A stretch of DNA of 64,000 nt from positions 620,001 to 684,000 of the forward strand of contig NZ_CP149787.1 in assembly GCF_037914945.1 (NCBI RefSeq). Direction: 5' to 3'. The notes under the pieces are model-generated. The model saw only the letters and a program-made list of their open reading frames with translations, ran no database searches and had not been told where the DNA came from. Both the position numbers and the translations under genes were made by a program. Positions 5,790 through 20,218 of this stretch are shown here, one piece after another. The DNA comes from Haloterrigena sp. KLK7 (GTDB lineage Archaea > Halobacteriota > Halobacteria > Halobacteriales > Natrialbaceae). Each line of letters opens with the position of its first letter. Positions within the stretch are counted from its first letter, which is position 1.

Positions 5790-7433
5790 ATGGGACACAC
5801 TGGTGAGGGTGATTCCGTCCGACTCCCTCGTCGATCGGTGCTCGCCGGACTCGGGGGGTTCGGCGCCGTCGGCACGGCCGGCTGTATTAGCACCGACCAG
5901 GGGATCGAACTCGATAGCGATCCCGAGAGACTCATCTTCGAGGGGTTCCGGGAGGCGGGCGTCGAACCGCCCGTCGAGACGACGATTTACTCCAATGCCG
6001 AGACGAACGGGCGGAAACGGTGGGCGCAGCTGGTCAAGCGCGAACTGGACAGTACCGACCTGTTCACCGTCGAGTTCGAGACTCTCGAGTGGACCTCGTA
6101 CATCGATCTGGTCAACAACATGGCCGCCAACGAGGAGAACGCGCTGGTCTGTCTGGGATTTATCGGCGGCTGGGATCCGCATCAGTACGTCTATCCGGGC
6201 TTTCACTCCGACAGTTTCGCCCCGACCGGCCTCAACATCAACCACTACGAAAACGAGCGGGTCGACGACCTCATCGACGAGGGGGTCGCGACCGTCGACG
6301 GCGACGAGCGCGTCGAGATCTACGAGGAGTTACAGGAACTACTCGTCGAAGAATCGCCGCTGTCGTTCGTTCGCGCCCCCGAAGAGATCGTCACCTATCG
6401 AGCCGACGCGATCGAGGGATTCCGGACGTATCCGGTCCCCGGTGACGAGTACAAATCGATCTACGCGCCGACGCTCGGAACCTACACGGAACTCACCACC
6501 GGAGCGACCGAACTCGTCGGCGACGCGGGAACGGAGATCGACAGCTACGATCCGGTCCAGACGGCCGACGACGTCTCGTATATGGTCACCGGCCTCGTCT
6601 ACGAACAGCTCCTCGAGATCGACTTCGACGGGAGCGTTCGGCCGCTGCTCGCGACCGATTGGCGCCGAATCGACGAGACGACCTGGCGGTTCGACCTGCG
6701 AAAGGACGTCCGATTTCACACCGGCGAGCCGTTCACCGCCGCGGACGTCCGTGCGACCCTCGAGCGATACGAGGGGACGCCGAGCGAACGGGACGTGTAC
6801 AACTGGTACGAGAGCGCGGAGATCCTCGGCGACCACGAGATCGAGATCTCCCTCCGAAAGCCGTACGGACCGCTGGAAACGGCGATCGCGCAGGTGCCGA
6901 TCCTCCCGGAAGCCGTCGCGGACGGTACGCACGACATCTCGAAGCGGCCGGTCGGAACCGGCCCGTACGCGTTCAAGAAACACGAGCCCGCCACGCTCTG
7001 GCGGCTGGTCGCCAACGAGGACCACTGGCACGACGGGAGCAACGGCGTCCCCGCGACTCCGCCGATCGAGACCGTGACGATGCGGATTATCACCGACTCG
7101 TCGGCCCGACGCGGCGCCCTCGAGGCAGGCGATATCCACCTGACCACGGGGCTCCCGAACGAGAGCCTCGAGACGTTCGAAGCCGACGACGCGTTCGTCG
7201 TCGACCGGACGACCGGCGCCGCCGTCGACTTCCTGGGCTATCCGAGCTACCTCGAGCCGTTCTCCAATCCGAAGGTCCGGCGGGGGATCGGCCAGCTGAT
7301 CCCGCGCGAGCGGATCATCGAGGACGCGTTCCACGGCGCCGGAACCGCGGCCTACACGCCGATCTCTCCGATGCACGAGCGGTTCGTGGATCCGGAGTTC
7401 GAAGCGCGCATCGTCGACGAGTACTTCAGCTGA
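5790..7433 (+). CDS. Family-5 ABC transporter binding lipoprotein, circularly permuted
   Basis: 547 residues. The N-terminus carries a Tat lipoprotein signal (RR at 14-15, lipobox GTAGC with Cys32), so the protein is exported folded and lipid-anchored outside the membrane. It belongs to the SBP_bac_5 (peptide/nickel-type) family, but segments are in swapped order. Residues ~44-225, beginning at DPERLIFEGFREAG, match what is normally the C-terminal third. Then YDPVQTADDVSY, FDLRKDVRFHTGEPFTAADV and the rest match the normal N-terminal two thirds, ending at RRGIGQLIPRERII...FHGAGT. All pieces are present. It heads an operon with two permeases and two ATPases; the permease start is 22 bases downstream. 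Substrate unknown. Confidence 0.92.
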   Translation: MGHTGEGDSVRLPRRSVLAGLGGFGAVGTAGCISTDQGIELDSDPERLIFEGFREAGVEPPVETTIYSNAETNGRKRWAQLVKRELDSTDLFTVEFETLEWTSYIDLVNNMAANEENALVCLGFIGGWDPHQYVYPGFHSDSFAPTGLNINHYENERVDDLIDEGVATVDGDERVEIYEELQELLVEESPLSFVRAPEEIVTYRADAIEGFRTYPVPGDEYKSIYAPTLGTYTELTTGATELVGDAGTEIDSYDPVQTADDVSYMVTGLVYEQLLEIDFDGSVRPLLATDWRRIDETTWRFDLRKDVRFHTGEPFTAADVRATLERYEGTPSERDVYNWYESAEILGDHEIEISLRKPYGPLETAIAQVPILPEAVADGTHDISKRPVGTGPYAFKKHEPATLWRLVANEDHWHDGSNGVPATPPIETVTMRIITDSSARRGALEAGDIHLTTGLPNESLETFEADDAFVVDRTTGAAVDFLGYPSYLEPFSNPKVRRGIGQLIPRERIIEDAFHGAGTAAYTPISPMHERFVDPEFEARIVDEYFS

Positions 7434-7455: not shown

Positions 7456-8409
7456 ATGACCCTGGCGAACTACGTCGTAAAGCGGGTGTTGGTGACGGTT
7501 CCGGTACTGCTGGGTGTGACGGCCCTGACGTTTTCGCTGCTCCACCTGACGCCGGGGAGTCCGGTCGACGCCGCGCTCGGGTTTCGGGAGGTCGACCCGG
7601 CCGTCAGGGAGGCGCTGGAAGCCGAGTACAACCTCGACCGCCCGATCTGGGAGCAGTACCTGCTCTGGCTGCGCGACGCGATCGTCCTCGAGTTCGGCGA
7701 GTCACCGATCACCGGTCGCGACGTCGGGGCGACGATCGCCGATCGGTTGCCCTACACGCTCGCACTCGGCGGCGCGGCGTGGCTCTGTTCGCTCCTGATC
7801 GGGATTCCGGCGGGTATCATCGCGGCCGTCAAGCGGGGCGAGCCCGCCGACGAGGTCAGCCGCGTCGCGGCCCTCGCCGGCATCGCGACGCCGAACTTCT
7901 GGCTGGGCCTGGTTCTCCTGTTCGTCTTCGGCGTCCGCCTCGGCTGGTTCCGGGTCATTCCGCCGGACGCGCCGCTGCTGAGCCTCGAGACCCTGCGGTT
8001 TCTGGTCCTGCCGACGATCACGCTCGGCACGGCCTCGGCCGCGCTCATCACTCGCCTGCTGCGCTCGTCGATGCGCCGGGAACTGAACGCGGCGTACGTC
8101 CGGACCGCCCGCGCGAAGGGACTGCGCGAGCGGACGGTGATCTGCAAGCACGTCCTGCGCAACGCCCTGATCGCCGTCGTCACCGTCGCCGGCCTCCAGT
8201 TGACCCTCCTCATCGACGGCGCGGTGGTCGTCGAGCAGGTGTTCTCCTGGCCCGGCACGGGGCGGCTCCTCGTCGGCGCGATCGGACGGCGCGACGTCCC
8301 GACCGTCCAGGCGACGGTGCTGGTCATCGCCGTCTCGGTCGTCGTCGCGAACCTGCTCGTCGATATCGTCTACGCAGCGCTCGACCCGCGGATCAGATAC
8401 GAACGGTGA
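7456..8409 (+). CDS. dppB: ABC transporter permease, DppB type
   Basis: 317 residues with about six membrane helices. It has the DppB/OppB hallmarks: an N-terminal helix followed by HLTPGSPVDAALG, LPYTLALGGAAWL, and the cytoplasmic coupling loop containing VRTARAKGLRE that contacts the ATPase. It forms half of the translocation channel with the next gene. It lies 22 bases after the binding-protein gene and 24 bases before the second permease, in one operon. Confidence 0.95.
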   Translation: MTLANYVVKRVLVTVPVLLGVTALTFSLLHLTPGSPVDAALGFREVDPAVREALEAEYNLDRPIWEQYLLWLRDAIVLEFGESPITGRDVGATIADRLPYTLALGGAAWLCSLLIGIPAGIIAAVKRGEPADEVSRVAALAGIATPNFWLGLVLLFVFGVRLGWFRVIPPDAPLLSLETLRFLVLPTITLGTASAALITRLLRSSMRRELNAAYVRTARAKGLRERTVICKHVLRNALIAVVTVAGLQLTLLIDGAVVVEQVFSWPGTGRLLVGAIGRRDVPTVQATVLVIAVSVVVANLLVDIVYAALDPRIRYER

Positions 8410-8433: not shown

Positions 8434-9504
8434 ATGACACGCGAAACACGGGACCGATCCACGACCGATCGCGGCCGCATTCGAATCGAGGGGTTCGACG
8501 AGGCCGTCGCGGCCGACCGCGCCGACGCCGCCGGCGACCCCTGGGCCGACGGCCGGTCGACCGATGACCGAGCGATCGAGCCAGATACCGTCTCTCGAAG
8601 GCGTCTCGAGGACTTCTGGCGCCGCTTCCGAGCGAACCGAACGGCCGTACTCGGGCTCGCGATCATCGCGGTGCTCTCGGTCGTCGCGGTCTTCGCCCGG
8701 CCGATCGCGTTCTCGGTCGCCGAGTACACGATCACCGTCCAGCCGTTCTCGCTGGCGCCGTACGATCCCGCCGAGATGTACGTCGGCCCCACCAACGCCG
8801 GTCCGTCGCCGGCCCACCCGTTCGGAACCGACTGGGCGGGCCGCGACCAGTTCTCGCGGGTCCTCGTCGGCGGCCGGTTCAGTCTCAGCATCGGGGTCGT
8901 CGCCGTCGCGCTCGCGCTGATCGTCGGGGTCCCGCTGGGCGCGATCGCCGGCTACTTCGGCGGCTGGGTCGACGAGATCATCATGCGGCTGGTCGACATC
9001 CTCTACGCGTTCCCGTTTCTGGTGCTCGCGATCGCCGTCGTCGCGGTCGTCGGCCGGGGCTACTGGAACGTCGTCGCCGCGCTCGCGCTGACCGGCTGGA
9101 TCGGCTACGCCCGCCTGTTGCGCGGCGAGATCCTCTCGGTTCGGGAACGCGAGTACGTCACTGCCGCGAAGGCCCTCGGGACGCCGGACCGAATCATCAT
9201 CGCCAGACACGTCGTTCCGAACGCCGTCGCCCCCGTCGTCGTGCAGGCGACGCTGAACGTCGGGACGGTCGTTCTGACGGCCGCGGCGCTGGGCTTTCTC
9301 GGCCTCGGACTCGAGCCGAGCACCGCCGAGTGGGGGTCGATGCTGGCGGACGGACGAGACGCGATCGCCAGCGGTCACTGGCATCTCACCGCCTTCCCCG
9401 GGCTGGCGATCTTCCTGTTCGTGATGGCGATCAACCTCGTCGGCGACGGGATCAACGACGCGCTGGATCCGCGGGGCGACACCGCCGAACGGAGGCGTCG
9501 ATAG
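8434..9504 (+). CDS. dppC: ABC transporter permease, DppC type
   Basis: 356 residues. A ~65-residue charged cytoplasmic N-terminal tail, longer than in bacterial DppC, precedes the first helix (AVLGLAIIAVLSVVAVFA). HPFGTDWAGRDQFSRVL is the family signature and AAKALGTPD the EAA coupling loop. The C-terminus (NDALDPR) is the usual end of the family. It pairs with the upstream permease. The next gene starts one base after its stop, so translation is probably coupled. Confidence 0.95.
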   Translation: MTRETRDRSTTDRGRIRIEGFDEAVAADRADAAGDPWADGRSTDDRAIEPDTVSRRRLEDFWRRFRANRTAVLGLAIIAVLSVVAVFARPIAFSVAEYTITVQPFSLAPYDPAEMYVGPTNAGPSPAHPFGTDWAGRDQFSRVLVGGRFSLSIGVVAVALALIVGVPLGAIAGYFGGWVDEIIMRLVDILYAFPFLVLAIAVVAVVGRGYWNVVAALALTGWIGYARLLRGEILSVREREYVTAAKALGTPDRIIIARHVVPNAVAPVVVQATLNVGTVVLTAAALGFLGLGLEPSTAEWGSMLADGRDAIASGHWHLTAFPGLAIFLFVMAINLVGDGINDALDPRGDTAERRRR

Positions 9505-9505
9505 C

Positions 9506-10591
9506 GTGGCGCTGCTCGAAGTCGAGGACCTCGTCGTGCAGTTCTACACCGACGACGGCGTGGTCCGCGCGGTCGACGGGATCAGCTACGAGGTCCACCG
9601 GGGCGAGACGGTCGCCGTCGTCGGCGAGAGCGGCGCCGGCAAGACCGTCACCAGCCTCGCCCTGCTTCGGCTGATCGAGGGGCCCGGCGAGATCGTCGGC
9701 GGCGAGATCCGCTTCGACGGCCGCGACGTCCTCGAGTGCTCCGACGAGGAACTCCGAAGGGTTCGCGGAAACGAGATCGCGATGGTGTTTCAGGACCCCG
9801 AGACGGCGCTCAACCCCGTCTACACCGTCGGCGAACAGATCGCCGAGGCGATCCGCGCCCACAGGGACGTCACCGACGAGCGGGCACGCGAGCGGGCGAT
9901 CGAGCTCCTCGAGCGCGTCGGGGTTCCCGACGCCGCGAGCCGCTATACCGACTACCCTCACGAGTTCTCCGGCGGCCAGCAACAGCGGGTCGTCATCGCG
10001 ATGGCGCTGTCCTGCGATCCCGACCTGCTCGTTTGCGACGAGCCGACGACCGCACTCGACGTCACGGTCGAGGCCCAACTCCTCGAGTTGCTCGAGGACC
10101 TCGCCGCGGAGTTCGACGCGGCGATCCAGTTCGTCTCGCACGACCTCGGCGTCGTCGCCGAACGCTGCGATCGCGTCCTGGTCATGTACGCCGGGCAGGT
10201 CGTCGAGCGCGCGCCCGTCGACGACCTCTACTACGACCCGAAACACCCCTACACGGTCGGACTGATGGCGTCGATCCCCCGGCTCGGCGACGACCGCGAC
10301 CGGCTACCGACGATTCCCGGGACGCCGCCGGATCTCGTGGACGCGCCGACTGGCTGTCGATTCCACCCGCGCTGTCCCTACGCCGAGGACTGCTGTGCGA
10401 TCCGCGAGCCGTCGCTCGTCGAGGCGGAGACCGGCAGCGCCGCGACGCCGGTCGACGTACCGCCCGACGACCACCTCGCCGCCTGCCACGAGTACACCGG
10501 CGACCTGGAGGGGGGACTGGACTACCACGTCGTCGTCAGGGACGCGGACGGAGACGGGGACGGAAACGGAACCGGAGGCGAGTTCGAATGA
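9506..10591 (+). CDS. dppD: ABC transporter ATP-binding protein, DppD type
   Basis: 361 residues, GTG start. Walker [12 protein letters not shown] signature FSGGQQQRV and Walker [13 protein letters not shown] are intact. The C-terminal oligopeptide/dipeptide domain has the Cys-rich [15 protein letters not shown], which in this family can bind an Fe-S cluster. The last ~20 residues are a Gly/Asp-rich tail. The stop overlaps the ATG of the partner ATPase by four bases (ATGA). Confidence 0.95.
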
Positions 10592-11940
10592 GCGACGGCG
10601 ATACCGACAGAGACGGCGGGTGCGATCGAGACGACGAACCGCTGCTTCGCGTCGAGGGCCTCGAGAAGGAGTACACGACGTCCGACGGCTTCCTCGATCG
10701 ACTGCTGGGCAACGAACGCACGGTCACGGCCGTCGACGGCGTCGACCTCGAGGTCCGCGAGGGGGAGACGCTCGGGCTGGTCGGCGAGAGCGGCTGCGGC
10801 AAGAGTTCGCTGGCCCGGTCGCTGCTCCGGCTCACCGAGCCGACCGCCGGCGCGGTGTCCTATCGCGGCACCGACCTGACCGATTGCACCCGGTCCGAAC
10901 TCCGGGCGATGCGGACGAACGTCCAGTACGTCTCCCAGAACCCCGGCGCGAGCCTGAACCCGCGGCTACCGGTCGGCGACATCGTCGGCGAACCCCTCGA
11001 GGTGCACGACATCGTCCCGCCCGAGGAGCGCGACGCTCGCGTTCGGGACCTGCTCGAGACCGTCGGGCTCGCGCCGAACCACGCCGATCGATATCCCCAC
11101 GAGTTCTCCGGCGGCCAGCGCCAGCGGATCGCCATCGCCCGCGCGCTGGCCGTCGAACCGGAGTTCGTCGTCTGCGACGAACCGGTGTCGTCGCTGGACG
11201 TCTCGGTACAGGCCCAGATCCTCAATCTATTGGCCGACCTGCAAGACGAGTTCGGCCTCTCCTATCTCTTCATCGCTCACGACCTCTCGGTCGTCGAGCA
11301 CGTCGCCGACCGGGTCGCCGTCATGTACCTCGGCGAGATCGTCGATATCGGCCCGACCGAGGCGGTCTTCGACGGGCCGTCACACCCCTACACGGCTGCC
11401 CTCCGCTCGGCGATCCCCGAACCGGACCCGCGCTGGGAGGGCGACCGGATCGTCCTCGAGGGCACCGTCCCCGATCCCAGCGACCGCCCGTCGGGCTGTC
11501 GGTTCCACACCCGCTGTCCGAAGGTGCTCTCGCCGGCCGAGTACGACCTCGAGTCCGACACGGTCCGGGCGATCCTCCGCCTGCGGAGACGGCTCGCCGA
11601 CGCCGAGGACGGTCTCGAGTCGATACTCACCACATCGGCGGCCGACGCGGACGTCCCCGCGGCGATCCGCGACGCGTTCGATATCCCGGTCGAACTCCGG
11701 GACGATGCCGCCGAGCGTGTCCTCTCGGACGCACTCGAGGTCGTCGCGGCCGGAGAACTCGACGACGGGCGGGCCCGACTCGCGTCGGCCTTCGCGACGC
11801 CGTGCGAGACCGATCGGCCGCGGCTCGAGTCCACCGATGACGGCGAGAGCGACGGCCGCTCGATCGCCTGTCACCGGTTCGACGAAACGTACGCGGACCA
11901 CCTGTCGGACGAGTCCGAGACGGCACCGTTCCACCGATGA
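10588..11940 (+). CDS. dppF: ABC transporter ATP-binding protein, DppF type, with C-terminal extension
   Basis: 450 residues, against ~320-350 for usual DppF. Walker A GESGCGKS, signature FSGGQRQRI and Walker [13 protein letters not shown] are complete. After [11 protein letters not shown] the protein does not reach the usual closely spaced Cys pair. It continues with a ~130-residue acidic helical segment (residues ~315-430), and then presents further cysteines in FATPCETD and SIACHRF. The start at 10588 is the ATG overlapping the previous stop; the longer open frame reaching back to 9736 is only the shadow of dppD. It energises the same transporter. The following gene overlaps by four bases. 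Confidence 0.94.
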
Positions 11941-12473: not shown

Positions 12474-13454
12474 TCACGTCTCCTCTGACCGTCGGCCCGT
12501 CGGCGGCTCGTCGTTCGACGGACTCTCGACGTCGGCCCCGTCGTCGGCGTCGCCGTACTCGTCGTCCTCGGCGGACGGAGACGGATCGACCGGCGCGTTC
12601 GTCCCCGTGAGCCGCCGGAGTCGGGCCGCGTACTCGTCGACCTCGAGGCCGAAGTCCTCCGAGAGCGACCACCGGCCGACGAGCCGGTCGGCGGCGTACA
12701 CCGTGAAGGTCGCAAGCAGGATACCTGCGACGACGTCGATCGCCCAGTGGATGCCCAGATACATCGTCGAGATCGCGATACTCGCCGCCAGCGGAACCGC
12801 GACGGCGAACCAGATCGGGTACTCCTCCCTCGTTCGATAGGCGAAGATCGCGATCGTCGCCGACAGCGAGGTGTGCAGCGAGGGGAAGACGTTGGTGTTG
12901 TGGTTGACCTCCCCAGTCAGGTACTGATACTGCGGCCGGAAATCGTACAGCACGGTCCCGATCTCGGTGGGCATGATGTTTCGCGGCCCGTAGGCGATCA
13001 CCAGGAGGTAGAGGAACAGTCCGAGTAGGTAGTTGAGCGCGTAGGCGGACAACAGTTCTCTGAGCGGTCGCGTATCCGACAGCGCGAAGTACGCGATCAC
13101 GGGGAAGATCAGAATGAAGACGTAGCCGTAGATGTAGACGAACGAAAAGTACCGCGTGACGGGCGGGCTGGCGAACTGCTGAAACCAGACGATCGCCTCT
13201 CCTTCGATGGCGTAAAACGTCGGCGTCAGGTTCCAGTCGATCGCCCAGGAGAGATCGGGAAGGTGCTGTCGAGTGAACCGGTTCGCGAGCAACACGACGA
13301 GCACCACGCCCGCGACGGGTGCGGACTCTCGCATCCGGTCCCGCCACTCGCGGCGGGTCCTCCGAAACCGGTGTCGGCCGATACAGAGGGGGACGAACCC
13401 GACGAGCAGGACGACGATGACGACCGCTACCTGCGTCAATAGCTCGGCGAGCAT
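12474..13454 (-). CDS. PAP2-superfamily membrane phosphatase (lipid phosphatase / Aur1-like)
   Basis: 326 residues with about six or seven membrane helices. The PAP2 catalytic motifs are visible: PSLHTS (C2, with the catalytic-site His) and the C3 motif STMYLGIHWAIDVVAG with the nucleophilic His. The long N-terminal region and AYGPRNIMPTEIG resemble the inositol-phosphotransferase/Aur1 branch more than short PAP2 phosphatases. It probably acts on a polyprenyl or archaeal lipid phosphate at the membrane. Its ATG (13452-13454) overlaps the stop of the upstream binding-protein gene, so the two are translationally coupled. The C-terminal ~60 residues are acidic and disordered. Confidence 0.88.
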   Translation of the reverse strand: MLAELLTQVAVVIVVLLVGFVPLCIGRHRFRRTRREWRDRMRESAPVAGVVLVVLLANRFTRQHLPDLSWAIDWNLTPTFYAIEGEAIVWFQQFASPPVTRYFSFVYIYGYVFILIFPVIAYFALSDTRPLRELLSAYALNYLLGLFLYLLVIAYGPRNIMPTEIGTVLYDFRPQYQYLTGEVNHNTNVFPSLHTSLSATIAIFAYRTREEYPIWFAVAVPLAASIAISTMYLGIHWAIDVVAGILLATFTVYAADRLVGRWSLSEDFGLEVDEYAARLRRLTGTNAPVDPSPSAEDDEYGDADDGADVESPSNDEPPTGRRSEET

Positions 13455-15229
13455 CAGGACCTCACGATGTATTCTCCGTCTTCGTCGTACTGAAATCCGT
13501 GCCGTTCGAAGGCTCGCTTCGCCCGTTCCACGTCCAGTTCACTCGTACCCTCACTGTCCGTTTCATCACGGAAAAAGGGCGCGTATGGTGCCTCGCCGTC
13601 CCACTCGAGGTCGTCGGGAACCCACTCCGCTGCGACCGGTGTGACGGTCGGGCTCGCCTGCCCGTTGAAGACGTCCGCCACGATCGATTCCCTGTCGATC
13701 AATCGGGCGACGTTTCGCCGGAAGTGGAGGTTGCTGAACGGCGAATTCCTGACGTTGAACCCGATGTGGTAGAACGTCCACGATTCGGACTCGACGAGTT
13801 CGAGGCCCGACGGGACCTCCCCGACAGTCTCCGATCCGAGAATGGAGGCCGTCATGTCGGCGTTCCCCGCCTCGAGCTGGTTGACGGCCGCACCGCTGTT
13901 CGGTTCGACGTGAAAGACGAGTTCGTCGACGTGCGGTTCCGGAAGGTCGACGTATCCGCGGCGGGTGAAGTGGTCGTCGAAGCGCTCGAATCGGAGGTGC
14001 GAACGCGGTTCCTGCTCGGTGAGCGCGAACGGACCGCTGCCGATCGTCGGGATCTCGTCCGTGGTCACGATCTCCCACGTCCCCTGTATGGGCTTCGCAC
14101 CGCTCTCGAGGCTGTCTTCGACCGCCGTCTTCCAGATGTGTTTCGGGAGGATCGGCACCGTAAACGCCAGTTCGCCGACCTCGTCGCTCGTACTGAATCG
14201 CATCCGAACGGTTCGATCGTCGACGGCCGTGACCGATTCGACGGCGTCTCCCAGTCCGCGGTACCTCGGCGCCGGCGACAGCCCCTCGCGCGCTCCGAGC
14301 GAGGTGTCGTTCAGGAAGTCGTACGTGAACTTGACGTCGTCGGCGGTGACCGGTTCGCCGTCGTGGAACCGACAGTTCGATCTGAGCGTGACCGTCGCGA
14401 CCGCGTCGTCCCACTCCCAGTCCTCGGCGAGCCACGGCCGAATCTCGCCGTCGTCCTCGGTCGCCACCGAGTCGTAGAGGAGATCGACGAACGCGCCCCG
14501 ATAGCGGTACGGCGCGGCCAGCGGGTTGATGTTTCTGGAGGGGCTCGAGTCGGTGATGACCGCGTTCAGGACCACGTCGTCCTCGAACGCGTCGTCCTTG
14601 GGCTCGAGGCCGAGAAAGCCGAGTCGCGTCCCGAGGTGGTGGTCGTTCCAGCCGTCGAACCGATCCGTTCTGACGAGTCGACGCTCGTCGGGAACGCAGA
14701 TCGGGACGATCGGATGCGTTTGCGCCAGTCGGTCGAGAACCTCGCCGACGGCTTGCTCGCGTTCCGAGCCCGCCGTCGAGCGCTGGCGCTCGAGCGCGTC
14801 GTCGATCTCGGTGTTCACGAGGCCGTAGGGGTTCTGCCAGCCGGCCTCGGGGGCGAACTTCGAGTGAAACGTCTCGTAGAGATAGTCGGGGTCGTGGCCG
14901 CCCGGATGGCGACTGATGTAACAATCGAAGTCGTGCTCGAGCAAGACCGTCTGCAGCAACTCGGGATCGGCGCGGGGCTCTATCCGAACGTTGATACCGA
15001 CCGCCTTGAGCTTCTCCTCGAGTCGGCGGGCGATCTTGATGGCCTGCCGATCGTTGTCAGTCGGCAGCGTCAAGATCGTTATCGAGAGCTGATCGCTGGC
15101 GGTGCCGGTGATGAGCTGCTGTATTCGGTCCGTACAGCCGGCTACCGAGCCGGCGATTCCTGTACTTCCAGCGGCGAGCACGGCACGTCTACTTACTCGG
15201 TCGTTAGACCGATCCGACGGGAGGGTCAT
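13454..15229 (-). CDS. Second circularly permuted family-5 ABC binding lipoprotein
   Basis: 591 residues. The Tat lipoprotein signal has RR at 14-15 and a lipobox SVAGC with Cys32, the same spacing as the other binding protein. Residues ~46-225 (LSITILTLPTDNDRQ ... HHLGTRLGFLGLEP) match the usual C-terminal third of SBP_bac_5. Residues ~240-591 (NINPLAAPYRYRGAFVDLLYDS, then CRFHDGEPVTADDVKFTYDF) match the usual N-terminal part. The chain ends with LDVERAKRAFERHGF, the helix that normally leads directly into what is here the N-terminus. No permease or ATPase is adjacent; it is followed, overlapping, by the PAP2 gene. It may share the facing transporter or act as a sensor. Confidence 0.92.
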   Translation of the reverse strand: MTLPSDRSNDRVSRRAVLAAGSTGIAGSVAGCTDRIQQLITGTASDQLSITILTLPTDNDRQAIKIARRLEEKLKAVGINVRIEPRADPELLQTVLLEHDFDCYISRHPGGHDPDYLYETFHSKFAPEAGWQNPYGLVNTEIDDALERQRSTAGSEREQAVGEVLDRLAQTHPIVPICVPDERRLVRTDRFDGWNDHHLGTRLGFLGLEPKDDAFEDDVVLNAVITDSSPSRNINPLAAPYRYRGAFVDLLYDSVATEDDGEIRPWLAEDWEWDDAVATVTLRSNCRFHDGEPVTADDVKFTYDFLNDTSLGAREGLSPAPRYRGLGDAVESVTAVDDRTVRMRFSTSDEVGELAFTVPILPKHIWKTAVEDSLESGAKPIQGTWEIVTTDEIPTIGSGPFALTEQEPRSHLRFERFDDHFTRRGYVDLPEPHVDELVFHVEPNSGAAVNQLEAGNADMTASILGSETVGEVPSGLELVESESWTFYHIGFNVRNSPFSNLHFRRNVARLIDRESIVADVFNGQASPTVTPVAAEWVPDDLEWDGEAPYAPFFRDETDSEGTSELDVERAKRAFERHGFQYDEDGEYIVRS

Positions 15230-16957: not shown

Positions 16958-19900
16958 TCACTGGGTCGCCAGCCGCTGCTTCCGGGCGTCCCAGAGGTGG
17001 CGTATCGACGCCGCGGTGAACGCGAGCGCACCGAGGATCATCGGCGTGTCGCCGAGCGTTCGGGCCCACAGCAGCGTCTGGACGTGGTCCTGTTCGTAGA
17101 ACTCGAGGTCGCGCGCGGCGGCGTAGCCGTCCTGATAGGCGGTCTGCAGCTGTAGGAACCCGATCGGGAGCAGCGAGGCGACGGTCATGACGGTGAGCCC
17201 GATATTGGTCAGCCAGAACGCGCCGCGGAACCACGTCGGGTTCCACGCCGATTCGGGGGTGACGACCCGCAGGATGTAGGTGCCCAGTCCGAGCGCGAGC
17301 AGGCCGAAGGCGCCGAACATCGACGTGTGCGCGTGGGCGACGGTCAGGTAGGTCCCGTGCTCGTAGTAGTTGATCAGCGGCAGGTTGATGAAGAAGCCGA
17401 GCACCCCGCCGCCGACGAAGTTCCAGACGGAGGAGCCGACGATGAAGAGCAGCGGGAGCGTGTAGGGGAACTCCTCGCCCTGGGCCCGCAGCGAGCGGTA
17501 CTCGCCGATGCTCCGGTAGAGGACGAAGACGAGCGGGACGAACTCGAGCGTCGAGAACGTCGTGCCGATGGGGACCCAGACGTCGGGGAGGCCGACCCAC
17601 CAGTAGTGGTGCGAGACGCCGACGATGCCGGCGGCCATGATCGCGAACACCTCGAAGAGGATCGCCTTCTCGGCGTCGGCCTTCTCGATCAGGTCCATCG
17701 ACACCAGTGCGGCGGAGATGACGGCAGTGACGAAGAACTCGAAGACGCCCTCGACCCACATGTGGACGACCCACCAGCGCCAGAACTCGGTCACGGCCAT
17801 GTTCGTCTCGGGCGTGTAGAGCATGCTCGCGGCGAACATGAGCGCGATCGAGCCGCCGGCGTAGGTCATGAAGTGTCCCAGGCCGGTCGGCGATTCGTCC
17901 AGTTGTCTGACGCCGCGGAGCACCAGCCCCGTCCAGACGCCGAAGCCGGCGAGCAGTCCCAGTTTCCAGACCCGACCGACCTCGAGGTACTCGAGGCCCT
18001 CGCTGCCGAGCCACCACCAGAGGTCGCCGTCGTCACTGCCGCTCCCGGGCGAACCGAACGCGCCGCGGGTACCGAGCCAGACGCCCGCGAACGCGCCGAC
18101 CGTGATGGCGACGAGCGCGCCCAGCAGCGCGGTCGCGCCCTCGGCCTGCCACGGCGGATCGCACTCGCTGAACAGCCCCGGCAGGAAGAGCCCGCCCGCG
18201 AGCCACAGCGTCGTGATCCAGAGGATGCCGAGATTGACGTGCCAGGTGCGACCCACCGAGAACGGCACCAGCGACACGAGATCGATATCGAGCGCGTCGC
18301 CGATCCCGTAGAAGCCGGTTCGTTCGACATAGTAGTGGGCCAGATAGGCGCCGACGAGGACCTGCGCGACGAACAGCGCGCCGGCGACGGGAACGTACCG
18401 CGCCGCGGCGTACTGGCTCGGCGTCACGGAGACGGAATCGGGCGAGGGAACGTCGACGAGCTCGGTCGTCGGTTCGGCCACGTCGAAGGAGTGGTAGGCC
18501 CAGACGCCGAACCCGCCGCCGCCGATGAGCAGGACGACGGCGATCGTGCTCCAGACGACGACCTGTCCGGTCGGCCGATTCCCGGCCGCGGGCACGTACG
18601 GCCAGTCGTTCGTGTAGGAGTGGTTCGAATCGGGTCGGTTGGTGTGGGCCATCCACGCCGTCCAGCACGCGAAGTCGGCGATACGGGCGGCTTCCTCGGG
18701 CGAATCGACGTACCCCTGCGGGATTCCGCGCTCGGGGGAGCCCCCGTAGTAGCGGTCGACGTACTGGTCGCGAATCCGGCGATGGGCGAACACCTCTGCG
18801 TCGGAGTAGCGGGCGACCGACCCTTCGGGCGCGTCGGAGTCGAGCTCCCGTTCCACGCGCCGTTCGACGGCCGCCTGATCGCCGTCCGCGAGCTCCTCGA
18901 ACGAGTCGCTCCCGCGCTGGCGCGCGTAGTACTCCCGCATGTACTCGGCTTTCAGGTCGAGCGCGTCGGCCGTCAGATCGACGCCGAAGTACGAGCCGTT
19001 CCCCAGGATCGACCCCTGATTCATGAGCCCGTTGGCCTGGAACGCCTTCTTCCCCAGCTTCACCTGCTCGTCGGTCACGACGGTCTCGCCGTTCGGCCCG
19101 CGGATCTCGTCGGGGATCGGCGGCGCCCGCTCTCGAGAGACGTAGGCCCCGAGCGTCATCGCGGCGAGGTTGGCCACGAACAGTCCCACGAGCGCCAGCG
19201 AGCCGGTCGAGTTCGACCGGAGCGCGTCGAGGTCGAAGCCGAGGTCGCTGTTCGCCCCCGTCTGCAACAGTAACGGTACCAGTTCGCTGAGAACCCGTTC
19301 GGTCGGGACGCCGCTACCCCCGTCACTGGCCTGTAACAGCCCCGTCGCCAGCTCCCCGACCGCGGGATCGACGCCGTCGCCGTCCGAGAGCATCGTCGTC
19401 GCCGCGACGGCCATCGCGACGGCCGATCGGACGCTCCCCGAGTGGACGCGTCCCGACCGACCGTGCGCCGTCGAGCCGCCGTCGCTTCCCTCGTTCGGGG
19501 CCACATTGAACGACCTCGTTCTCGAGCCCGCGCGGTCTTCGGCCTCTAGCTCCGCCATCTCCGATTCCAGTTCCGCCGCGAGCGCCGGCAGTTCCTCCGT
19601 GAGCACCCGCTCGAGTTCGTGGCCGACCGCGATGGCGTCGCGCTCGAGGAGGTCCTCGAACAGACCGTCGACGGGTCGGTCCGCCGTCCCGTCCAGTCGC
19701 GCGCGGAGTCGCGAACACGCTTCGGCGAGCGGATCGTCGGTCGGAAGCTCCGTCTCGTCGGCCGAGTCGGATCCCGACGTCGACCGCCCGCTCAGCACCT
19801 GCTCGAGTAGTTCCTCGGGATCCACGTCGGCCCCGGCGACCGACAGCCGGGTCCGGATCGCGTCCAGCGTGCGGTCGTCCAACCGATCCTCGTCGAGACC

Positions 19901-20218
19901 GTACCGTCGCAGGAAGTCCTCGAGCGCGCGATCGAGCGGATCGGTCGGTCCGAACTCGGACTCATCGTCGCCGCGGCCGAGTCCCGATTCCGTGAGCAGT
20001 TCGTCGGCGCTCCGATCGATCGCGCGCTCGAGCAGTTCGTCGACGGCCCGCTCGGCGGCGTCGGTCGCCCGCTGGCTCACCGCGTCGCGGACCCGCGTCG
20101 ACAGTTCGCCGACCGCTTCGGTACTCGACTCGAGTCGATTCGTCACGGAGTCGGTCACTTCCCGGCGGCCGTCCGTCCCGAGACGGTCGGAATCCGGGAG
20201 GAGATCGCTGATACCCAT
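16958..20218 (-). CDS. norB: Quinol-dependent nitric oxide reductase with a long N-terminal extension
   Basis: 1086 residues; ordinary qNOR is ~750-760. Residues ~341-1086 are a full qNOR: TM1 followed by APPIPDEI, a heme-less cytochrome-c-like domain (LGKKAFQANGLMNQGS), then the heme-copper-oxidase-like core. Visible ligands are H660 (RTWHVNLG), H819 with E823 (HMWVEG), H870/H871 (SHHYWW) and H962/H964 (AHAHTSMFG), consistent with heme b, heme b3 and FeB. It reduces 2 NO to N2O with quinol electrons at the membrane. Residues 1-~335 are a charged, mostly helical region rich in Asp, Glu, Arg and Leu, without similarity I recognise. The ATG at 20218 follows AT-rich promoter-like sequence. No other denitrification gene is nearby. 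Confidence 0.93.
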   Translation of the reverse strand: MGISDLLPDSDRLGTDGRREVTDSVTNRLESSTEAVGELSTRVRDAVSQRATDAAERAVDELLERAIDRSADELLTESGLGRGDDESEFGPTDPLDRALEDFLRRYGLDEDRLDDRTLDAIRTRLSVAGADVDPEELLEQVLSGRSTSGSDSADETELPTDDPLAEACSRLRARLDGTADRPVDGLFEDLLERDAIAVGHELERVLTEELPALAAELESEMAELEAEDRAGSRTRSFNVAPNEGSDGGSTAHGRSGRVHSGSVRSAVAMAVAATTMLSDGDGVDPAVGELATGLLQASDGGSGVPTERVLSELVPLLLQTGANSDLGFDLDALRSNSTGSLALVGLFVANLAAMTLGAYVSRERAPPIPDEIRGPNGETVVTDEQVKLGKKAFQANGLMNQGSILGNGSYFGVDLTADALDLKAEYMREYYARQRGSDSFEELADGDQAAVERRVERELDSDAPEGSVARYSDAEVFAHRRIRDQYVDRYYGGSPERGIPQGYVDSPEEAARIADFACWTAWMAHTNRPDSNHSYTNDWPYVPAAGNRPTGQVVVWSTIAVVLLIGGGGFGVWAYHSFDVAEPTTELVDVPSPDSVSVTPSQYAAARYVPVAGALFVAQVLVGAYLAHYYVERTGFYGIGDALDIDLVSLVPFSVGRTWHVNLGILWITTLWLAGGLFLPGLFSECDPPWQAEGATALLGALVAITVGAFAGVWLGTRGAFGSPGSGSDDGDLWWWLGSEGLEYLEVGRVWKLGLLAGFGVWTGLVLRGVRQLDESPTGLGHFMTYAGGSIALMFAASMLYTPETNMAVTEFWRWWVVHMWVEGVFEFFVTAVISAALVSMDLIEKADAEKAILFEVFAIMAAGIVGVSHHYWWVGLPDVWVPIGTTFSTLEFVPLVFVLYRSIGEYRSLRAQGEEFPYTLPLLFIVGSSVWNFVGGGVLGFFINLPLINYYEHGTYLTVAHAHTSMFGAFGLLALGLGTYILRVVTPESAWNPTWFRGAFWLTNIGLTVMTVASLLPIGFLQLQTAYQDGYAAARDLEFYEQDHVQTLLWARTLGDTPMILGALAFTAASIRHLWDARKQRLATQ

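Follow-up and report, generated by a model that had tools for sequence, protein, structure and literature searches.

What kind of protein heads the transporter operon at positions 5790-7433 of this stretch of Haloterrigena sp. KLK7 DNA (64,000 nt; the window), and how did it come by its present chain order? The original prediction was that this binding protein (SBP), here called P0001, is a circular permutant of the SBP_bac_5 fold. We hold with high confidence a somewhat broader reading: P0001 is a working, membrane-tethered SBP of the DppA/OppA/NikA family that is circularly permuted and most likely arose in place by duplication, as has happened at least three times in the family. The fold, the role in transport and the duplication route are the inferred parts of that reading.

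Segment order of P0001

The gene and its parts are as follows.

5790..7433, + strand: permuted SBP_bac_5 lipoprotein, 547 aa, clade A (P0001); from Pfam, PDB and segment profiles and the rotated alignment
5790..5885, + strand: Tat signal peptide and lipobox, aa 1-32 (Cys32); from sequence and conservation in permuted proteins
5916..6467, + strand: old C-terminal segment, now first, aa 43-226; from the match to 5u4o 356-505 and the C-segment profile
6468..6503, + strand: junction linker from old C-terminus to old N-terminus, aa 227-238; from the rotated alignment with L025
6504..7430, + strand: old N-terminal segment, now last, aa 239-547; from the match to 5u4o 55-331 and the N-segment profile

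The lipobox is TAGC, preceded by a Tat-type RR motif; across 68 permuted proteins RR14-15 and G31 are invariant and Cys32 is nearly so. Family membership is clear. The Pfam model PF00496 (SBP_bac_5) matches with an E-value of 2.5e-59 and a score of 201.7 bits, above the gathering score of 32.4. The match falls in two stretches, the better of which places aa 283-533 on profile positions 2-255. A search against solved structures gives the order of the parts: aa 251-527 correspond to 5u4o 55-331 (i-E 9e-35), and the earlier aa 55-211 correspond to the later 5u4o 356-505 (i-E 2.6e-6, a modest match taken alone). The order is likewise swapped against 1xoc (AppA), 1uqw (YliB/GsiB) and 3m8u. Profiles built in this analysis assign aa 50-220 to the C-segment and aa 239-539 to the N-segment, in agreement with the predicted switch at residue ~225, and together with the swapped 5u4o matches they bear out the claim that the C-terminal part directly follows the lipobox. 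The chain was also said to stop where the C-terminal third would begin. Indeed, its end falls between two helices of the canonical fold, just before the C-segment: helices 535-546 and 44-56 of P0001 are helices 358-373 and 377-391 of the canonical protein L025. P0001 thus fails the collinear N-to-C order of the SBP_bac_5 fold, making it a permuted variant rather than an ordinary member.

Comparison with a canonical relative

After its orthologues, the next closest relatives of P0001 in a search of 97 Halobacteria genomes are canonical-order genes in three other genomes. L025 is a canonical-order relative from another haloarchaeon, at the head of the same kind of operon. When L025 is rotated at the loop before 'YDQEQANTLLEEG', it aligns with P0001 over 507 columns with 217 identities (43%) and a score of 1128, versus 321 columns and a score of 501 for the collinear alignment. 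Across all rotations of L025 the best score is at that loop, and the median is 749. The whole chain is therefore covered by the rotated alignment and not by the collinear one, which is the criterion for a circular permutant; no end-to-end collinear alignment was obtained with either the PDB matches or L025. The predicted secondary-structure state is equal at 480 of the 507 positions (95%). This evidence identifies P0001 as a circularly permuted form of the SBP_bac_5 (DppA/OppA/NikA) fold.

Could P0001 be a chimera, with its first segment drawn from a different paralogue? The authors of the study of TpMglB-2, a permuted SBP of Treponema pallidum, considered this option for their protein and could not rule out that one part came from another gene (PMC4990184). 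Trees built from the N-segment only and the C-segment only do disagree, although in weakly supported places. However, both segments of P0001 match the same canonical relatives, L023-L025, at similar levels (43-48% for the N-segment, 40-44% for the C-segment), and clade A (9 rows) and the L233+L234 pair described below are recovered in both segment trees (87/91 and 92/97). A chimeric origin is highly improbable, leaving rearrangement of a single gene as the preferred reading.

Predicted structure

AlphaFold2 models of P0001 (pLDDT 90.8, pTM 0.87) and L025 (pLDDT 88.9, pTM 0.85) were made from input alignments holding only permuted and only canonical sequences, respectively. The P0001 model shows all the fold elements of L025 in rotated order. 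In Foldseek, which requires sequential order, the L025 model has whole-length PDB matches (TM by target mostly 0.7-0.9), and the P0001 model has partial matches to the same PDB families (TM by query 0.35-0.43), the difference that permutation predicts. Structure prediction had been proposed as a check on the original claim, and by AlphaFold2 and Foldseek the fold as predicted is not a different one. The two models were compared without a permutation-aware superposition, so that retention of the two-lobed clamp fold is inferred from a confident model.

Distribution of the permuted order

Is the swapped order peculiar to one genome? A search for haloarchaeal homologues with the same order, also proposed at the outset, found them in other genomes and genera. 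Copies of P0001 at 86-91% identity occur in other genomes of the genus, and one at 86% in a named record of Haloterrigena salina, all with the permuted order kept. Orthologues in other genera are 47-53% identical with the same order, and those from the 97 Halobacteria genomes (47-50%) align end-to-end. Because orthologues have the order in common, it can be neither chance nor an assembly error, and the latter is ruled out. More generally, an artefact of assembly or frame choice has no observation in its favor and a negligible chance of being the explanation, given the same order in many independent genomes and named NCBI records and a high-confidence structure model.

Segment profiles applied to the loci fetched found 137 permuted, 90 canonical and 3 incomplete proteins. 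The 137 of 227 classified proteins are not a census, as sampling tracked similarity to permuted queries. The original prediction stands as to the permutation, and what lies beyond it is that the order is common and recurrent in haloarchaea and that the window holds a second example. The source genome encodes at least four permuted family-5 SBPs: P0001, loci L006 and L008, and the following.

13454..15229, - strand: another permuted SBP_bac_5 lipoprotein (clade E, 591 aa), with its C-segment at aa 41-203 and its N-segment at aa 221-544

No permease genes adjoin this second gene. About 60 of the 97 sampled genomes carry a homologue that matches its product at better than 1e-60; its clade is near-universal in the window's haloarchaeal family, and elsewhere often occurs as tandem permuted pairs.

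Permuted SBPs are also found in non-haloarchaeal Halobacteriota (L267-L270). L267 (4730-6472, - strand) lacks a lipobox and has a C-terminal hydrophobic segment, indicating that it is anchored at the other end. Others are on plasmids of Alphaproteobacteria (Nitratireductor, Ketogulonicigenium, Maritalea, Roseomonas and Microvirga). The plasmid-borne SBPs L277-L282 belong to clade C, and some lie beside hydantoinase/oxoprolinase or peptidase genes. Transfer between domains is the likely source of the alphaproteobacterial clade-C proteins. Bacterial occurrence was judged from plasmid records only; a search of genome contigs gave two loci, one of which is a canonical bacterial SBP. In Neorhizobium galegae VafX2 (L283, 2746-4507), the permuted SBP gene is in two ORFs, reflecting a frame break or a sequencing error.

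Operon context and inferred function

Does the permuted protein still take part in transport? P0001 is encoded by the first gene of an SBP-DppB-DppC-DppD-DppF operon (OppBCDF-type permeases and ATPases), whose other members are listed here.

7456..8409, + strand: DppB/OppB-type permease; PF00528 1.5e-42
8434..9504, + strand: DppC/OppC-type permease; PF00528 5.4e-39, OppC_N
9506..10591, + strand: DppD-type ATPase; ABC_tran 1.8e-29, oligo_HPY
10588..11940, + strand: DppF-type ATPase; ABC_tran 1.6e-33, oligo_HPY

This layout is common to permuted and canonical relatives. The expectation of an intact permuted protein ahead of a full permease and ATPase set is met by the complete DppBCDF-type operon, with transport itself inferred. 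Orthologues of P0001 have a dN/dS of 0.19-0.46 over the mature part, indicating purifying selection; this ratio and the open frame rule out a pseudogene. It is possible to argue that permuted copies no longer serve transport, either having become orphan receptors or sensors or being in decay: no permease genes adjoin the gene of the clade-E protein at 13454-15229, and one clade-A copy (genome G164) is split. That argument is very unlikely to hold, since in every flank that was read the permuted genes of clades A and B stand first in a complete transporter operon, selection on the orthologues is purifying, and the reading frame is open over its full length in the great majority of clade-A copies. 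The preferred reading, in which P0001 captures a ligand and hands it to the downstream permeases and ATPases, is an inference, with the ligand unidentified and no binding or uptake data. Substrates of the SBP_bac_5 family include peptides, nickel chelates, glutathione and opine-like compounds.

Number of origins

How often has the order changed? In trees built on the re-ordered alignment, six order changes are needed over 145 rows, at least four of them forced by well-supported branches. Trees of clade A and family B alone (58 rows) require 5-6 changes, and a single origin is allowed by 0 of 200 bootstrap trees. Clade A, including P0001, is compatible with a single permutation event, and a single permuted clade inside family B (a ~650-aa family) is rejected (p 4.5e-5). 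Within family B, L233 (canonical) and L234 (permuted) group as sisters (support 100/99). They share 72% identity across the two segments, their signal peptides are alike, and their operon is the same. Permuted clades C, D and E and the non-haloarchaeal proteins may be the product of one old event. The breakpoints also differ: before the helix '(D)PERLIFEGF' in clade A, after it in family B, and after both that helix and the following hairpin in clades C/D/E. Together, the trees and the differing breakpoints support at least three independent permutations, which is a careful minimum.

A single ancient permutation behind all permuted SBPs would require the canonical members near clade A and in family B to be later returns. 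Some observations can be accommodated in this way. Clades C, D, E and the non-haloarchaeal proteins can be held as one clade (not rejected, p 0.11), and canonical L217 and L233, nested among permuted family-B genes, read '..FPLEV/FPIEV' at the helix-strand join, like the heads of permuted proteins; other canonical family-B members read '..TPIEV', '..APLEV' or '..YPLEV'. This join hints, on sequence grounds, at a return to canonical order, so returns may occur. On the other hand, permuted A and B rows as one clade are rejected (p-AU 7e-37), the breakpoints of A, B and C/D/E share neither a position nor a linker trait, and the order is canonical in the relatives that branch at the base of clade A and of family B. 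A single origin is accordingly unlikely, and several origins remain the preferred reading.

A further possibility, which we put forward only tentatively and would not favor at present, is that permutation both recurs and can be reversed. The two orders would then have been interconverted several times at one orthologous operon position, with returns to canonical order included, perhaps because tethered archaeal SBPs are hardly affected by a move of the anchor, or sometimes benefit from it. In family B, the direction of some order changes may have been blurred by gene conversion.

Proposed mechanism and anchor position

How could a gene be permuted in place? The most likely route would be that the mature coding region was duplicated in tandem and that the first N-segment and the last C-segment were then lost. 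In P0001 a short linker joins the old termini, and the new termini lie in an inter-helix loop at about 60% of the canonical chain. The signal peptide and lipobox stayed 5', leaving the lipid anchor ahead of the old C-terminal segment, which by the domain boundaries of DppA would put it in domain III rather than domain I. The permuted protein would still fold as a two-lobed clamp and pass its ligand (peptides, metal chelates or similar) to the downstream transporter. Family-B permuted junctions consist of a complete old C-terminal end and part of the old linker from lipobox to first strand, the make-up expected from tandem duplication and loss of the outer pieces under the general model of permutation by duplication (PMC3320104). 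The SBP case departs from that model in that permutation recurs in a single family, takes place inside an operon without moving the gene, and keeps the signal peptide in front. No tandem-duplicate intermediate was found, none of the 227 classified ORFs having doubled segments, and no leftover half-genes lie beside permuted genes, where the only partial copies are neighboring SBP genes cut by locus ends. Any benefit from the relocated lipid anchor is inferred; tethering was considered as a cause of permutation in TpMglB-2 (PMC4990184).

Relation to known systems and implications

P0001 is homologous over both segments to the cluster C (PF00496) proteins DppA, OppA, AppA, NikA and GsiB. It shares with DppA/OppA-type SBPs the predicted secondary-structure elements, the lipoprotein character and the company of two permeases and two oligo_HPY ATPases, but differs in its swapped segments, in having its termini in the loop that precedes the C-segment and in an anchor attached ahead of the old C-terminal segment. 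The closest precedent is TpMglB-2 (Tp0684), a circularly permuted "Type Ic / Cluster Bc" SBP (PMC4990184). Both are naturally permuted, lipid-tethered SBPs of ABC transporters with a two-lobed fold (predicted for P0001), whereas TpMglB-2 belongs to a cluster B sugar-binding family, has another breakpoint and lacks near-identical canonical orthologues. Membership of P0001 in the TpMglB-2 type was rejected, as Pfam and solved structures give family-5 matches only and no cluster B match. A literature search, with most subscription journals outside its reach, turned up nothing beyond engineered proteins and the T. pallidum precedent, and thus no permuted SBP of family 5; nor is there one in the PDB among the matches listed.

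What are the implications? P0001 itself is a permuted variant of a well-known family, and the unusual part is that the swapping has happened repeatedly, in part recently, and may be reversible. Most natural circular permutations on record are one-off, ancient events that set distant homologues apart. First, the same operon position here holds differing chain orders at 72% identity, and separate lineages have different breakpoints. Second, with near-matched natural pairs, the path, tolerance and possible benefit of permutation become testable. Third, a large set of transporter proteins from archaea, with some from Alphaproteobacteria, is only partly covered by collinear profile models. Fourth, natural permuted scaffolds with relocated termini are on offer.

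Elsewhere in the window, a 1086-aa ORF (16958-20218, - strand) resembles, by eye only, a nitric oxide reductase of the quinol type that carries a long, acidic extension at its N-terminus.
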